DNA from: Micromonospora sp. KC723 | Lineage (GTDB): Bacteria; Actinomycetota; Actinomycetes; Mycobacteriales; Micromonosporaceae | Assembly: GCF_004348595.1 (NCBI RefSeq) | Contig: NZ_SMKD01000005.1 | Location: forward strand, 1-64,000 | Reading direction: 5' to 3' | Length of the DNA stretch: 64,000 nt | Shown: piece by piece, positions 54,227-60,353 of the stretch | Numbering within the stretch: position 1 is the first letter of the stretch | Layout of the letters: each line of letters opens with the position of its first letter | The notes under the pieces: model-generated | Database searches by the model: none | Seen by the model: only the letters and a program-made list of their open reading frames with translations | Told to the model about the DNA's origin: nothing | Translations under genes and position numbers: made by a program

Positions 54227-55942
54227 ATGCGTGGTGACCTGGTCAGAAAACTGATCGCGCGGTGCCTGACCACCGGCCTGGCCGTGGTCGCGTTCCTGGT
54301 GGTGGCGCTCACCGGCGCCACCGGGTGGGGTCTGGCGCTGGCGGTGGCCGCGCTGGCCGCCGCCGCGGCGGAACGCCGGGTCCGTTCGAACGCGGACATC
54401 ACCGCCGAGACGGCGCTGCTCGCCGCCGCGATCCTGGGCGGGTACGCGCGCCGGCTCGACGGCGGCTTCGACCCGGTGTTGGCGCTGGCCGGGCTGGTGC
54501 TGCTCGGGCTGGTGCTGCTGGTCGGCCCCCTGCGCGACGCCGGCAACCTGGAGATCCGGGCGGCGAACCTGCCGGTGCGTACCTGGACCCCGCTGGTCGC
54601 CGCCCGGCTCGACGCGACGCTGCTGGCCCTGCTCGTGGTGGTCGCGGTCGCCGCCGCCGGCCCCCTGCCCGCCGTGGTCGCGCTGGCCGCCGCCCTCCTG
54701 GTGGCCGGGGCCTGCGGGGCGGTCGGCCTCGACCTGGCCCGACGGAGGTTCCGGCCGAGAGCCGGGGGCGGGCCGGTGGCCCGGGCGCTGCGGGCGCACC
54801 AGCCGGAGTTCCTGCTCTACTTCTCCGCCCCGCCCGGGTCCGAGTACCAGGTCACCATGTGGCTGCCGTACCTGCAGCGGTTGGGCCGGCCGTTCCTGGT
54901 GCTGCTGCGGGAGCCGGAGTTCCTGCCCACCATCGCCGCGGCCACCTCCGCGCCGGTGGTCTACTGCCCCACCCTGAAGGCCATGGACCAGGCGCTGGTG
55001 CCGAGCCTGCGGGTGGCGTTCTACGTCAACCACGGCGCTAAGAACAGCCACTGCGTCCGGTTCACCCAGCTCACCCACGTGCAGTTGCACCACGGTGACA
55101 GCGACAAGGCCCCCAGCGCCAACCCGGTCTCGGCGATCTTCGACCGGATCTTCGTGGCCGGTCCGGCCGCCATCGAGCGGTACGCCCGGGCCGGCGTGGA
55201 GATCCCCGCGGAGAAGTTCGTCGTGGTCGGTCGCCCCCAGGTCGAGTCGATCGAGGTACGCCCCGAACCGGCCCTCGGCCTGCCCAACCCGACCGTGCTC
55301 TACACGCCGACCTGGACGGGGCACCACGCCGACGCGAACTACTGCTCCCTGCCGGTGGCCGAGACGCTGCTACGCCGGCTGCTCGACCGGGGCGCCACGG
55401 TGATCCTGCGGGCCCACCCCTACACCACGCAGAACCCGGCGTCGGCGCGGCACCTCGCCCGGTTGACGGAGCTGCTCGCCGCCGACCGGGCCCGCACCGC
55501 GCGGGGGCACCTGTGGGGCGCGGCGGCCAGCCGCGAACTGACCCTGACCGACTGCGTCAACCGGGCCGACGCGCTCGTCTCGGACGTGTCCGGGGTGATC
55601 TCCGACTTTCTCTACTCCGGCAAGCCGTACGCGGTGACCGACATGGGTGTCGACGGCGACGACTTCGTCGCCCGGTTCCCCCTGGCGGCATCGGGCTACG
55701 TGCTGCGGCGCGACATGTCCAACGTCGACGACGTGCTGACCCGGTTGTTGGACACCGACCCACTGGCCCCGGCCCGGTGGGAGACGCGCCGCCGCTACCT
55801 CGGCGACTTCCCGGCCGCCTCGTACGCCGACGGGTTCCTGGACGCGGCCCGGCGTGAGCTGGAGCCGGGCGGTAGGCCACCGTCGCCGCGCGCCGCGGCC
55901 CCGGCGAGGCGGGATGCCGCACCCCTGACCCCCACCGCCTGA
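54227..55942 (+). CDS. Second TagF-like polyol-phosphate transferase with N-terminal membrane domain
   Basis: This 571-residue protein has the same plan as the gene at 45803: four to five N-terminal membrane helices (residues ~14-170) and a TagF-like GT-B domain. Matching blocks are FLLYFSAPPGSEYQVTMWL, THVQLHHGDSDKAPSANPVS with the catalytic His, TVLYTPTWTGHHA, ILRAHPYTTQNPA and VSDVSGVISDFLYSGKPYAV. It starts 29 bp after the CDP-ribitol synthase gene, so the two form an operon. Two different polymerases suggest a primase/polymerase division, as with TarK/TarL or TagB/TagF (inference). A Pro/Ala-rich tail ends the protein. Confidence 0.9.
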   Translation: MRGDLVRKLIARCLTTGLAVVAFLVVALTGATGWGLALAVAALAAAAAERRVRSNADITAETALLAAAILGGYARRLDGGFDPVLALAGLVLLGLVLLVGPLRDAGNLEIRAANLPVRTWTPLVAARLDATLLALLVVVAVAAAGPLPAVVALAAALLVAGACGAVGLDLARRRFRPRAGGGPVARALRAHQPEFLLYFSAPPGSEYQVTMWLPYLQRLGRPFLVLLREPEFLPTIAAATSAPVVYCPTLKAMDQALVPSLRVAFYVNHGAKNSHCVRFTQLTHVQLHHGDSDKAPSANPVSAIFDRIFVAGPAAIERYARAGVEIPAEKFVVVGRPQVESIEVRPEPALGLPNPTVLYTPTWTGHHADANYCSLPVAETLLRRLLDRGATVILRAHPYTTQNPASARHLARLTELLAADRARTARGHLWGAAASRELTLTDCVNRADALVSDVSGVISDFLYSGKPYAVTDMGVDGDDFVARFPLAASGYVLRRDMSNVDDVLTRLLDTDPLAPARWETRRRYLGDFPAASYADGFLDAARRELEPGGRPPSPRAAAPARRDAAPLTPTA

Positions 55943-56013: not shown

Positions 56014-56049
56014 ACGGGCGCCGGTCCTCGACCGAGGACCGGCGCCCGT
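56014..56049. terminator. Bidirectional terminator between the TagF-like and C39 peptidase genes
   Basis: A perfect 16-bp inverted repeat (56014-56029 with 56034-56049) closes a 4-nt loop. It lies between convergent genes ending at 55942 and 56063, so it can serve both. It is the strongest hairpin I found in the window. Confidence 0.9.
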
Positions 56050-56062
56050 GGCGCGGGGCGGA

Positions 56063-56911
56063 TCAGGCGGAGTAGCCGCGGGTGGCGATCCAGTTCGCCA
56101 GGTCGGCCGTGGTGATCCAGTACTCCGGCAGGCTCGGGTCGGCCGAGTCGGCGATCCGGACCAGCCGGCCGCTGTCCCGGTACCCGATCACGGCGATGTA
56201 GTGGCCACCCGGGAAGGAGTGCCAGCCACCGGCGGTGTCGGTGGCGTCACCGGCCACGTTGGCGACGACCCCCCGCCGGGCGGTGATCGCCGCGACCACG
56301 TCGGCCCGGAGCTGGGCGACCTGCGCCGCGTTCGGGGTGCCCGGGAACATCCGGGTCCGGTACGGGTTGCCCTTGACGAACTGGTTGAGCACCCGGGTGG
56401 TGTCCAGGGCCGAGTTGGTGCCCATCTCGGTGGTGCCCAGCGCGCCGGCCAGCCCGTCCTGGGTCCGGTCGATGCCGGCCGCGCTGAGCGCGTGGCGCAC
56501 CGCCGCGGGGCCGCAGTAGTAGTAGGTGACCTGGGCCTGGTAGTCGTAGTCCAGGATCTTCGACGCCGGGGGCTTGGGAGCCGCCGTCCGGGTCAGGTCG
56601 GGGTCGGCCGCCCTGCGCTTGGTCGAGGGCGTGGCGGTGGGCGACGGGGTGGGGCTCGCCGAGGGCGACGGGCTGGCGGCCGGGGTGCTGACGGCCACAC
56701 GGGCCTGGTTCCGGCTGGCCACGTCGGCCAGGCGCGGAGCCGCCTCGACGAGGGCGGCCGGAGTCTGCTGACGGGCGGGCGACTCGTCGGCGCCGGCGAC
56801 CAGCACGCCGGTGCCGGTCGCCAGCAGGAGCGCGGCGGCGGAGCCCACGACGACCTGGTACGGACGCTCGGTGGCCAGGCGCCGCAACTGCCGCCTGAGG
56901 TGGTGCTTCAC
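56063..56911 (-). CDS. Secreted/anchored C39-like (papain-fold) peptidase under c-di-AMP riboswitch control
   Basis: This 282-residue protein has an N-terminal membrane segment (about residues 21-40, VVVGSAAALLLATGTGVLVA), a Ser/Thr/Pro linker (about 70-115), and a C-terminal C39-like cysteine peptidase domain. The catalytic Cys133 is in YYYCGPAAVRHAL, His237 in GGHYIAVIGY, and an Asp follows in IADSADPSLPEYW. GTG at 56911 is used because GGAGG lies 5 nt upstream. Upstream is a canonical c-di-AMP riboswitch, an RNA class that in actinobacteria controls wall-lytic and resuscitation proteins. A role in wall remodelling is therefore likely, although the domain could also cleave a secreted peptide. 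Confidence 0.88.
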   Translation of the reverse strand: MKHHLRRQLRRLATERPYQVVVGSAAALLLATGTGVLVAGADESPARQQTPAALVEAAPRLADVASRNQARVAVSTPAASPSPSASPTPSPTATPSTKRRAADPDLTRTAAPKPPASKILDYDYQAQVTYYYCGPAAVRHALSAAGIDRTQDGLAGALGTTEMGTNSALDTTRVLNQFVKGNPYRTRMFPGTPNAAQVAQLRADVVAAITARRGVVANVAGDATDTAGGWHSFPGGHYIAVIGYRDSGRLVRIADSADPSLPEYWITTADLANWIATRGYSA

Positions 56912-57148
56912 GTGTTCCTCCACGGTACGAGGGCCGGAGCGGCACGCCGGATCGGCGCGTGGCGGAAGGCGTCACGCGCGAAACGGAGGGACGGGCCGCT
57001 CGGCGGGGGGAGCGCCCGGGCGGTGGCCGGGCGTCGGGGCGGATGCCGGGGTCAGGACGCGACGGCGCGGCCTACCGGCGGGTGCACCCCGGTACCGAGG
57101 TGGAGCGCAGGTGAGGGATGTGGGGCACGGGGATGGAACTCCTTCCGA

Positions 57149-57272
57149 CACCGCCTACCGGGTTAGCTGACGGATTCGGGCGGGAAGATCGCCCTACCGC
57201 GGGTCCGGGCCCACGGATTCACCCCAGACTTGCTTGGGTCCCCGGTTCGTGTGAGCCACGATTCGGCGGGTC
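57149..57272 (-). ncRNA. c-di-AMP riboswitch (ydaO-yuaA type)
   Basis: On the minus strand the conserved blocks of this riboswitch appear in order: CCGCCGAAT (57261-57269), CGAACCGGGGACCC, GGGGTGAATCCG, GGTAGGGCGATCTTCCCGCC, CGAATCCGTCAGCTAACCC and GGTAGGCGG (57151-57159). The first CCGCC and last GGCGG can pair to close P1. The family binds cyclic di-AMP and generally turns genes off. About 235 nt separate its end from the C39 start codon. A promoter with 17-bp spacing lies just upstream. Confidence 0.93.
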
Positions 57273-57319
57273 GGCGCGGCGTCGCCTTCTGCGATCGGAA
57301 ACCGCGCCGGACCGGGGTG

Positions 57320-57348
57320 ACACTACTGGCAGTGGCACCCCACGCCAA
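57320..57348 (-). promoter_or_regulatory. Candidate promoter of the riboswitch-C39 transcript
   Basis: On the minus strand TTGGCG (57343-57348) and TAGTGT (57320-57325) are separated by exactly 17 bp. This predicts a start near 57312, about 40 nt before the conserved riboswitch core. Confidence 0.65.
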
Positions 57349-57474
57349 GCCTCCTGAGCTGCGTAAACGTCATCTGCCGGGACAGTTTCCGGTGCAGTTC
57401 GGCACTGACGTGACTCAATGGGACGACTGACTTTCCAGGCATGAGGGGACAACAACCGGACACCGGAGGCGACA

Positions 57475-57598: not shown

Positions 57599-58354
57599 TC
57601 ACCCGACCCGGGCCGGTCGCCATCGGGTCGCGGCGGCGGTACGGGGTGCGGTCGCGGCCCGGGACCGGGCGGGCACCCGGTCCGGCCGCAGTCGCTGCGC
57701 CGCCGCGTACGCCTCGACAGCGAGGGCGCGGGCCGCCTCGGCTGCCCGTTCGGCGTCCCGCCAGGCCGCGCGTTCCCGGTCGGCCGCCGCCAGGTATGCC
57801 TCCCGCCGGCTGTCGCGCACGGCGCGGGCCAGCCGCACCTCCTGCTCGACGGGGTGCCGCCGGGGATCCCAGCCGTCGCGGTGGGCGAAGACGTCCCGCA
57901 GCCGCTGCACCGGCAACTCGCCGCGCCAGTGCGCCGCCACGACGGCCCGGTGCAGCCAGCGCTCCCGCGCGGCGTACTCGGCCGGCGTGCGGGGGGTACG
58001 CGGGGTCGGCAGCGCCCCGGCGCCGACGAACCGACGGGCGGCCGTCTCCGCCTCGTCGTACGCCGTCCAGGCGCGGTCCACCTCCTCCTGGGCGGCCAGC
58101 CACGCGTCCCGCCACCGCGGGGCGGTCCGGGCGGCGTGGGCGGCGGCCACGGCGACCTCCCCGGCGTACCGGCGCAGGTCCGCCGCTTCGACGGCGGGAT
58201 CGTCGGTCGGGGCGGCGTCCTCGTCGAGCGGGTCCTCCCGCTCGGGTCGGGCCACCAGCACGGTGAGCAGGGTGAGGGCGAGGACCAGCAGGACCGACCA
58301 GATGGCGGCGGCGGTCGGTACCTCGATCAGGAATTGGTAGAGGACGGCGTTCAC
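57599..58354 (-). CDS. Membrane-anchored coiled-coil protein of unknown function
   Basis: This protein of about 251 residues has one N-terminal membrane helix (about 13-37, AAIWSVLLVLALTLLTVLVA). A long, highly charged, Ala/Arg/Glu-rich helical region follows, predicted cytoplasmic, with two or three coiled-coil stretches (for example RERAAWRDAERAAEAARALA). I do not recognise a family. GTG at 58354 follows GGGAGG with an 8-nt spacer. It is followed by the C39 transcription unit on the same strand and preceded by another small secreted or membrane protein gene. Confidence 0.65.
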   Translation of the reverse strand: MNAVLYQFLIEVPTAAAIWSVLLVLALTLLTVLVARPEREDPLDEDAAPTDDPAVEAADLRRYAGEVAVAAAHAARTAPRWRDAWLAAQEEVDRAWTAYDEAETAARRFVGAGALPTPRTPRTPAEYAARERWLHRAVVAAHWRGELPVQRLRDVFAHRDGWDPRRHPVEQEVRLARAVRDSRREAYLAAADRERAAWRDAERAAEAARALAVEAYAAAQRLRPDRVPARSRAATAPRTAAATRWRPARVG

Positions 58355-58498
58355 GGTCGGCACCTCCCGGGAGCGGGACGCGGATCAGGGGAACCGCACC
58401 TCGCCGAGCGCTACTCGCCGGCCGTCGGGCTGGCCGGGGCGCTCGGGCGGACGCGGGGGTGGGATCGAGAGGGCGTGTCGCGGGTGGTCGCGTGGCGG

Positions 58499-59099: not shown

Positions 59100-60353
59100 T
59101 CAGCCGGGGTGGCCGGCGGTGGACCGCGACGACGAGGTGGCGGCCCGACGGGTGACCGGCACGGGGGCGTCGCCCGACGCCGGCCGATCGCCGGCCTCGG
59201 CGGGGGTCGGCGCACCAGTCGCCGCCGACGCACCGCTCGGGTCCGCGCGCACGGGTGGACGGCGGCGGGGGGCCAGGCGGCGCATCATCGGGATCTCCAC
59301 CCAGCGGTGCAGCATGGCGGCGAACAGTAGGTTCACCGCCAGGAAGCCGAGCACCACCAGCGGCCCCGACCAGCCCGGCAGGCCGACCCCGAGCTGACCG
59401 ACGGCCCGCAGCACGGTGACCATCACCAGCACGTGCACCAGGTAGAAGGCGAAGGAGACCTCACCGAGCCAGACCAGTCGGCGGTGGCGCCACGGCGAGC
59501 GGCGTCCGCGCACGTCCGCGTCCGCCGCCGCGGTGATCACCAGGAGGTACGCCACGGACAGGACCGCCGCCCACAGCTCGGCGCGGACCCACAGGCCCGC
59601 CACCACCCAGGTGGCCACGAAGACGAGGCTGGCCAGGGGCAGCCGTGGACCGCGCCACCGGCCCCGGCGCATCAGCTCGGCGGCGACCACGCCCAGCCAG
59701 AACTCGGTCGAGCGGACCAGCGGGAAGATCTGGGTGAACCACCAGGTGCTCTCGTCGGGAACCAGGAGCTGACCCGGCCAGAGCGCCACGATCACCAGTG
59801 GCACCGCCACCACCACCGACCAGAGCAGAGCGGTGCGGGCACGGCGCACCGCCGGTAGCACCAACGGCAGGCAGAGGTAGAAGAACAGCTCGCAGGAGAG
59901 CGACCAGCTCACCGTGTTGATGCTGTAGAAGTAGCCGGGGGTGGGATCCCAGGCCTGGACCAGGAGCAGGTTCTCCAGGGCCGCGCGGGGCACCACCGGG
60001 TCGGCGAACCACCACATCACCGCCAGCGCCGCCGCCCAGGTCAGCACGTGGTTCGGGTAGATCTTGGCCAGCCGCCGCCGCCAGAAGTCGCGCCGCCGCT
60101 CGCCGTCGCGGGCCGACCACACCAGCACGAAGCCGCTGAGGATGAAGAAGAACTGCACCCCGGACAGGCCGAGGGTGAAGATCCCGTCGACGACCGCCTT
60201 GGCGTCCGGGTCGCCGACGATCCGCATGGTGCCGGCGTGGTAGCCGAAGACCAGCATCGCGGCCACCCAGCGCAGCCCGGTCAGCGAGGGCAGTCGGCTC
60301 GCCGAGGGGGTGGTCGGGTCGGACCGCCCTGCCCCGGCACGGATCGACACCAC
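59100..60353 (-). CDS. Acyltransferase family 3 membrane protein
   Basis: This 417-residue protein belongs to the AT3/OafA-type acyltransferases that O-acylate surface glycans or secondary metabolites. It has about ten membrane helices, with LTGLRWVAAMLVFGYHAGTM containing the conserved His, VQFFFILSGFVLVW, the charged loop RRRLAKIYPNHVL, and NTVSWSLSCELFFYLCLPL. GTG at 60353 has GAGGAGGGG upstream. The C-terminal ~60 residues are low-complexity and without SGNH domain, so it is the single-domain form. It is divergent from a family 2 glycosyltransferase, which suggests glycan acetylation or acylation. Confidence 0.9.
   Translation of the reverse strand: MVSIRAGAGRSDPTTPSASRLPSLTGLRWVAAMLVFGYHAGTMRIVGDPDAKAVVDGIFTLGLSGVQFFFILSGFVLVWSARDGERRRDFWRRRLAKIYPNHVLTWAAALAVMWWFADPVVPRAALENLLLVQAWDPTPGYFYSINTVSWSLSCELFFYLCLPLVLPAVRRARTALLWSVVVAVPLVIVALWPGQLLVPDESTWWFTQIFPLVRSTEFWLGVVAAELMRRGRWRGPRLPLASLVFVATWVVAGLWVRAELWAAVLSVAYLLVITAAADADVRGRRSPWRHRRLVWLGEVSFAFYLVHVLVMVTVLRAVGQLGVGLPGWSGPLVVLGFLAVNLLFAAMLHRWVEIPMMRRLAPRRRPPVRADPSGASAATGAPTPAEAGDRPASGDAPVPVTRRAATSSSRSTAGHPG

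Follow-up and report, generated by a model that had tools for sequence, protein, structure and literature searches.

A c-di-AMP riboswitch upstream of a C39-like peptidase gene in Micromonosporaceae, with a short ORF that may relay its control

The locus described here lies in Micromonospora sp. KC723, within a stretch of 64,000 nucleotides that we refer to as the window. Reading 5' to 3' along the minus strand, a GTTTACGCAG box, TTGGCG, TAGTGT, a riboswitch aptamer, a Shine-Dalgarno (SD) sequence termed SD1, a short open reading frame (ORF), a GC hairpin, GGAGG and a gene for a C39-like peptidase follow one another in that order. The individual features are as follows.

57359-57368, minus strand: GTTTACGCAG box, 10 nt upstream of the -35-like element, a possible regulator site (alignment of 33 leaders)
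57343-57348, minus strand: -35-like element TTGGCG (sequence; TTGGC identical in 33 aligned leaders)
57320-57325, minus strand: -10-like element TAGTGT, after a 17-nt spacer (sequence; nearly conserved in 33 leaders)
57137-57278, minus strand: c-di-AMP (ydaO/yuaA) riboswitch aptamer (RF00379, 91.6 bits, full length)
57139-57144, minus strand: SD1, AAGGAG, 6 nt past the 3' strand of P1 at 57155-57151 (sequence; same position in relatives)
57072-57128, minus strand: short upstream ORF (uORF), from GTG through 18 codons to TAG, VPHIPHLRSTSVPGCTRR (sequence; conserved start codon)
57100-57105, minus strand: first part of the putative anti-SD, CTCCAC, able to pair with GTGGAG at 56923-56918 (counterpart of the conserved CCUCCACGG of relatives)
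57092-57096, minus strand: second part of the putative anti-SD, GGTAC, after a 3-nt bulge, able to pair with GTACC at 56928-56924 (sequence)
57013-57033, minus strand: GC hairpin CGCCCGG-loop-CCGGGCG, without a U tract (homologous hairpin in 33 leaders)
56917-56928, minus strand: SD of the C39 gene (GGAGG, 56921-56917) with its 5' context, the candidate partner of the anti-SD (pairing analysis and sequence)
56063-56911, minus strand: C39-like papain-fold peptidase, 282 aa (Pfam PF13529, invariant residues, structure model and PDB matches)
56014-56049, no strand assigned: perfect inverted repeat with 16-bp arms and a 4-nt loop, just past the C39 stop (sequence)

The inverted repeat is a probable end of transcription, in the form of a bidirectional terminator between convergent genes. 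Profile matches identify the genes that flank the C39 gene as CDP-glycerol glycerophosphotransferase-like (54227-55942, plus strand) and as an acyltransferase (59100-60353, minus strand). The C39 gene may be located next to a surface glycopolymer cluster. A 254-aa ORF located 5' of the riboswitch unit (57599-58363, minus strand) had no Pfam or NCBIfam match.

A reading made from the sequence alone had proposed a ydaO-type riboswitch with its conserved blocks, and a covariance-model search for RF00379 bears this out. The cmscan match extends over the entire model (positions 1-134 of 134) with an E value of 3.3e-20, and its score of 91.6 bits compares with a gathering score of 38, which places the aptamer in the family both by the curated threshold and by its full length. 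It is the sole Rfam match above gathering thresholds in the window. We regard the aptamer on these grounds as a genuine c-di-AMP riboswitch, and presume that it binds its ligand at this locus as well.

The same reading had claimed a well-spaced promoter, and the pair TTGGCG and TAGTGT, separated by 17 nt and located 5' of the aptamer, is indeed promoter-like by sequence. The pair is also found 5' of the aptamer in 33 aligned leaders from the same genus, among which TTGGC is identical and the -10-like element is slightly variable (TAATGT, TACTGT, TAACGT). No promoter was detected in the leader by a mechanical sigma-70 scan, which uses a stricter consensus. A transcription start downstream of the riboswitch had been named as an observation that would tell against the proposal, and this possibility gets no support because the promoter-like pair lies 5' of the aptamer in all 33 leaders. 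Farther upstream, the GTTTACGCAG box looks like a regulator site, with GTTT invariant and CAG nearly so in 33 same-genus leaders. The pattern GTTT-N-N-GCAG, or one near to it, recurs in 33 Micromonospora-like leaders, and the box can be recognised by eye in several other genera.

The C39 coding region ends at 56063 and likely starts at the second of two GTG codons, at 56911 rather than 56923, which yields a protein of 282 aa. The second codon is preferred because GGAGG (56921-56917) sits between the two and because orthologues align at V/M-K-H. In the protein, a short basic N-terminus is followed by one hydrophobic segment, a linker rich in Ser, Pro, Thr and Ala, and a catalytic domain at about residues 115-282. 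Pfam assigns it to Peptidase_C39_2 (PF13529) with 62 bits against a gathering threshold of 24 (E 1.2e-16), the match covering residues 124-261 of the 286-aa reading. Gln127, Cys133, His237 and Asp255 are invariant in 33 aligned sequences, and we take these, as in other members of the clan, to be the papain-like catalytic residues of a PF13529 member; the structural neighbours of the fold are papain-like as well.

An AlphaFold model is confident for the catalytic domain only, with a pLDDT above 90 over most of residues 111-282 and a mean of 77 for the whole protein. The best PDB neighbours returned by Foldseek differ in substrate and include the primitive phytochelatin synthase Alr0975, papain-like toxin domains, the C39 peptidase domains of ComA/PCAT, PeiR (a pseudomurein endoisopeptidase) and a putative C39-like peptidase; cell-wall hydrolysis is thus one candidate activity of the enzyme. 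A PDB search by sequence gave nothing up to an E value of 1. Taken together, these results make the protein a probable active, extracytoplasmic enzyme with a papain fold. Its description as a membrane-anchored C39-like protein is upheld for the Peptidase_C39_2 domain and the catalytic residues, and anchoring is plausible from the one N-terminal hydrophobic stretch, with secretion by signal cleavage as the alternative.

The association of a c-di-AMP riboswitch with a C39-like, probably extracytoplasmic protein, as first noted in this single sequence, is kept in much of the Micromonosporaceae. Given that the riboswitch is present at all 30 same-genus loci fetched by protein (L034-L063, the present locus included), sequence comparison indicates that the linkage is inherited. 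RF00379 was found in all 41 same-genus genomes searched, our own included, and 40 of these carry a C39 orthologue that is at least 60% identical across residues 5-233 or a longer span, the exception (G009) having more distant C39 relatives only. A family sample of 61 genomes gave 34 with a protein match, and the riboswitch accompanies 12 of the 27 further loci from this sample. Among named genomes, the riboswitch signature was recognised by pattern at 74 of the best 80 loci (of 364). When 20 of the 80 were examined by cmscan the riboswitch was present in 18, and the two negatives, L153 and L166, were negative by pattern also. These two are among the six loci without a signature; in the other four, a contig end lies 287-843 nt before the match and may have cut off the leader. 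A class-wide protein search of 59 other genomes produced weak partial matches in two of them, so within that sample this C39 type seems restricted to the family.

The source genome holds four riboswitches, which precede the C39 gene, an Rpf-LysM gene and the genes for two coiled-coil-looking proteins. The latter two (L002:1636-2649 and L003:1636-2694), which are probably secreted, had no Pfam matches and represent a possible further class of c-di-AMP target. One of them is weakly RipC-like in NCBIfam. A separate observation concerns Planosporangium flavigriseum, where a second c-di-AMP riboswitch (L149:3597-3727, minus strand) lies about 2.3 kb from the first on the opposite strand.

As would be expected of a translational riboswitch, an SD and a start codon are located within about 15 nt of the aptamer and open an ORF, although in this case the ORF is short. 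The aptamer-edge SD opens an ORF of at least 224 codons at 25 of 25 non-C39 riboswitch loci that were parsed, a set drawn from the source and same-genus genomes by the best match per genome and representing few gene families (L022 was not parsed). At the seven C39 loci of the same set, this SD opens an ORF of only 18-28 codons. Each of 75 distinct leaders from the Micromonospora clade has a start codon 7-11 nt past SD1 (72 GTG, two TTG and one ATG), compared with 15% of shuffles, and the uORFs are 14-28 codons long. A start codon at this same distance past SD1 is likewise found at 12 of 12 riboswitch-bearing loci from other genera, versus 25% of shuffles; the sequences are related, so these counts are not independent, and the codon was sought in a set window past SD1 of 8-15, 7-12 or 5-12 nt in separate parsings.

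The uORF of the window is frameshifted relative to that of a near relative (L035) and most others. We considered conservation of the peptide as the cause of uORF conservation, and rejected it because frameshifted lineages keep the nucleotide block and no peptide common to the uORFs of different genera was seen by eye. Termination-reinitiation of the uPPE2 type was also rejected, because the uORF stop and the C39 start are too far apart. In the window, 149 nt separate the uORF stop from the C39 SD. The distance from the end of the Rfam model to the start codon at 56911 is about 225 nt, close to the ~235 nt given earlier for the stretch between riboswitch and start codon. The accompanying guess that this stretch may hold the expression platform is supported. 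The short ORF and the anti-SD, both absent from the sequence-only reading, are found there.

The most conserved 9-mer of the uORF among the 75 clade leaders, CCUCCACGG, is complementary to the context of the C39 SD, CCGUGGAGG. This set drops L094, L151 and L159, which are Micromonospora by name and carry a different leader, as well as the fused L120 and L145 and exact duplicates as defined by uORF plus SD context. In register, 96.3% of the CCUCCACGG:CCGUGGAGG cells are paired, compared with 17.6-54.4% when the two are slid by 1-4 positions, and all nine pairs are present in 58 of the 75 leaders. In ten of the 17 leaders that fall short of nine pairs, the alignment places CUCCAC three bases farther upstream, and in several of these the duplex is lengthened at the opposite side of the SD; three of the 17 are altered on the SD side. 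Salinispora mooreana and S. pacifica have lost the anti-SD block. The spacing between anti-SD and SD is 71-201 nt, with a median of 171, in the 72 leaders measured, and is 174 nt in the window. RNAalifold, applied to 33 leaders, picked the pairing between the uORF block and the C39 SD unprompted.

Most clade leaders carry the anti-SD block in frame 0 of the uORF, but six have it in frame 1 and three, one of them the window, in frame 2; these counts exclude two chance matches removed by eye. The block thus survives uORF frameshifts, which argues that what is conserved is the RNA and not the peptide. Within the clade, variation in the core pairs is slight and mostly by wobble, and the signal there is one of conservation more than covariation. 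Pairing of the anti-SD with SD1 instead of the C39 SD was considered and rejected, as inspection by eye gives CUCC:GGAG only, or 4 bp versus 9. Like the aptamer and SD1 with its start codon, this complementarity and its conservation in the Micromonospora clade are legible directly in the sequences.

Duplex energy is a blunt measure in G+C-rich RNA and was replaced as the main test by a count of contiguous pairs covering the SD core. Among 100 distinct leaders (78 from the clade and 22 others, with L094, L151 and L159 kept), the pairing exceeded that of shuffles (p 0.05 or less) in 63 of the 78 from the clade and in five of the 22 from other genera (combined p 0.014 for the latter group). A set of 26 other-genus leaders, which has one duplicate pair (L076 and L169), contains six with nine or more contiguous pairs where 1.3 are expected (p about 0.01), and none of 25 non-cognate rotations reached six. 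These six (L069, L070, L083, L096, L146 and L147) have differing SD contexts with matching uORF segments. The remaining 20 of the 26 have fewer than nine contiguous pairs, and at ten or more the count of one versus 0.5 expected is not significant. By duplex energy, 18 of 33 same-genus leaders reached p 0.05 or less and 12 other-genus leaders gave p values of 0.07-0.9, and in a permutation cognate pairing beat non-cognate pairing (p 0.0016). The pairing in the window, which comprises 6 and 5 bp around a 3-nt bulge, is on its own not significant (p 0.15 by duplex energy and 0.34 by contiguous pairs). The hallmark of an anti-SD attenuator, a conserved leader-ORF complement to a downstream SD, is present in the Micromonospora clade, weaker in the window and patchy in other genera.

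Folding predictions were made for 83 clade leaders, leaving out L120, L145 and L135. Blocking the uORF raised the median probability that the C39 SD is unpaired from 0.01 to 0.21, and the mean values were 0.06 for the free leader, 0.24 with the uORF blocked and 0.07 with the downstream stretch blocked. Opening of the SD went up by more than 0.1 in 59 of the 83 leaders and down in three, and 21 showed little effect, including L047 and L043, which have some of the longest complementarity. On the whole, the predicted folds agree with an anti-SD relay for the clade. The leader in the window is nonetheless a poor case for such a relay, because its uORF is frameshifted, its bulged pairing is not significant and blocking leaves the predicted fold unchanged (0.20 to 0.21).

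Several natural variants rearrange these parts. M. qiuiae (L145) is missing the stretch between anti-SD and SD, so that its uORF runs in frame into C39 and CCUCCACG-GCCCU-CGUGGAGG forms one 8-bp hairpin joining the two elements. M. sonchi (L120) has a similar arrangement, in which the SD is changed and one pair is mismatched, and M. gifhornensis (L118) keeps both pairing halves and lacks the GC hairpin. The three species indicate that loss of the hairpin need not abolish the pairing. In Plantactinospora mayteni (L135), a second C39 gene starts directly at the riboswitch SD. A second C39 type behind a riboswitch was noted both at this locus, with its direct start, and in Micromonospora sp. HM5-17 (L151), with a longer leader.

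We propose, with confidence evenly divided for and against, that a c-di-AMP OFF riboswitch controls the C39-like peptidase through a relay formed by a translated short ORF. Transcription would begin 5' of the aptamer, and SD1 at the 3' edge of the aptamer would open the short ORF, not the peptidase gene. At low c-di-AMP concentrations, ribosomes would load at SD1, traverse the anti-SD and prevent its pairing, which would leave the C39 SD open. With c-di-AMP bound, initiation at SD1 would be blocked, and the naked anti-SD would pair with the C39 SD such that the peptidase would go unmade. We infer the transcription start, ligand binding at this locus, translation of the uORF and release by ribosomes, and the blocking of SD1 by c-di-AMP is postulated by analogy with nlpC of Corynebacterium glutamicum as presented in excerpts of PMC9960051. 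A broader formulation is that the riboswitch determines whether ribosomes load onto a short ORF that has no fixed peptide and carries in its RNA an anti-SD for a distant gene, that Micromonosporaceae use this for C39, and that some species have collapsed the relay by deletion into a direct fusion; we hold this view tentatively, at slightly below even confidence.

Two further points speak against the relay. A transiting ribosome covers the anti-SD only briefly, and the GC hairpin, which is commoner than chance, has no place in the model. The hairpin may instead mark transcription attenuation of the kind reported for rpfA, in which case c-di-AMP would stop RNA polymerase at or near it and the short ORF and the complementarity would be incidental. 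A homologous hairpin of 6-10 bp is present in all 33 leaders (7-8 bp in 26), and 74 of the 75 clade leaders have a hairpin of at least 6 bp no more than 70 nt from the uORF stop, compared with 52% of shuffles, and 70 have a stem of at least 7 bp there, compared with 34%. Premature termination of rpfA with c-di-AMP is reported in the excerpted review PMC10117811, and its OFF sense agrees. However, an intrinsic terminator combines a GC hairpin with a U tract, and in the window the hairpin is there and the U tract is absent; a terminator scan found nothing at this position, and the 8 nt past the hairpin hold 0-2 T residues in 48 of 74 leaders and 4-5 in eight. Furthermore, the intervening region is entirely or largely missing in M. 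gifhornensis, M. qiuiae and M. sonchi, but the anti-SD:SD pairing is still perfect in two of these species and present with a mismatch in the third. Attenuation also leaves SD1 with its start codon and the conserved complement unexplained, and we judge it fairly unlikely.

Conservation of SD1 and the start codon, but not of the peptide, would also fit a polarity effect, in which uORF translation shields the transcript from Rho or decay and c-di-AMP creates an untranslated leader on which Rho stops the polymerase before C39. Other genera have untranslated gaps of 59-391 nt between the uORF stop and the C39 SD that are in keeping with this idea. In the Micromonospora clade, however, 32-189 nt of this interval (more in L094, L151 and L159) would be bare either way, the anti-SD is left unexplained, and the excerpted text of PMC9960051 says that control in Streptomyces coelicolor is reported to be Rho-independent, such that polarity seems improbable. 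We consider it very improbable that the arrangement is a relic, in which C39 arrived downstream of an older riboswitch, the 5' end of the gene formerly controlled by it stayed in place and the riboswitch affects C39 at most weakly. The lack of a peptide recognisable by eye across genera, the frameshifts in several lineages including the window, and the direct arrangement in L135 are what such an origin might leave, but the start codon is kept in 75 of 75 leaders, the anti-SD block is the most conserved 9-mer, and several genera retain the arrangement, their aptamers scoring 72-98 bits.

The relay that we propose shares features with several known systems. The riboswitch resembles other RF00379 representatives (ydaO/yuaA, kimA) in its aptamer fold, its conserved blocks and its envelope target in an actinobacterium, but it differs in having a C39-like target and a 3'-edge SD from which a short ORF, and not the target gene, is opened. 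In translational attenuators of the ermC type, translation of a leader ORF controls a sequestered downstream SD, with drug-stalled ribosomes as the input, whereas here the input would be ribosome loading as set by a riboswitch. The excerpts of PMC9960051 describe the nlpC element of C. glutamicum as a c-di-AMP OFF switch, seemingly translational, ahead of a cell-wall-related peptidase, and its authors suggest that CTCC of the riboswitch masks GGAG of the gene. Both systems would thus pair an OFF switch thought to be translational with a peptidase target; the nlpC mask is proposed to lie inside the riboswitch, with no relay ORF described in those excerpts, whereas the mask here would lie in the short ORF beyond. 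The ppe2 B12 riboswitch of Mycobacterium tuberculosis has a translated leader ORF, uPPE2, that acts mainly by termination-reinitiation at an AUGA overlap, according to excerpts of PMC11260477. It is alike in that a riboswitch controls a translated leader ORF and the following gene relies on this ORF for its expression, and it indicates that actinobacteria can use such an ORF, though by reinitiation; it differs in its B12 ligand and in that the C39 start lies well past the uORF stop with its own SD. The rpfA riboswitch of S. coelicolor is also a c-di-AMP OFF switch acting on an envelope enzyme, but is reported to terminate transcription prematurely (excerpts of the review PMC10117811).

Among the papers searched, none brings together C39, a c-di-AMP riboswitch and actinobacteria. 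The one paper that combines c-di-AMP, riboswitch and C39 concerns S15 regulators according to its listing, and this layout was not found among the papers listed in searches for ydaO with Micromonospora, for c-di-AMP riboswitches with uORFs, or for riboswitch-small ORF coupling in Actinobacteria. The aptamer is a new member of a known family, and neither this type of target nor the relay arrangement turned up in the papers searched.

Reports differ on how c-di-AMP riboswitches act in actinobacteria, with transcription termination described in Streptomyces and translation control in Corynebacterium. The C39 leader represents a third possible layout, for which nature provides variants with a relay, a shortened relay, a fusion and direct control. 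A papain-fold peptidase joins the c-di-AMP envelope regulon, beside Rpf and NlpC/P60 proteins. If the relay operates as proposed, the C39 gene would read both c-di-AMP and the translational capacity of the cell.
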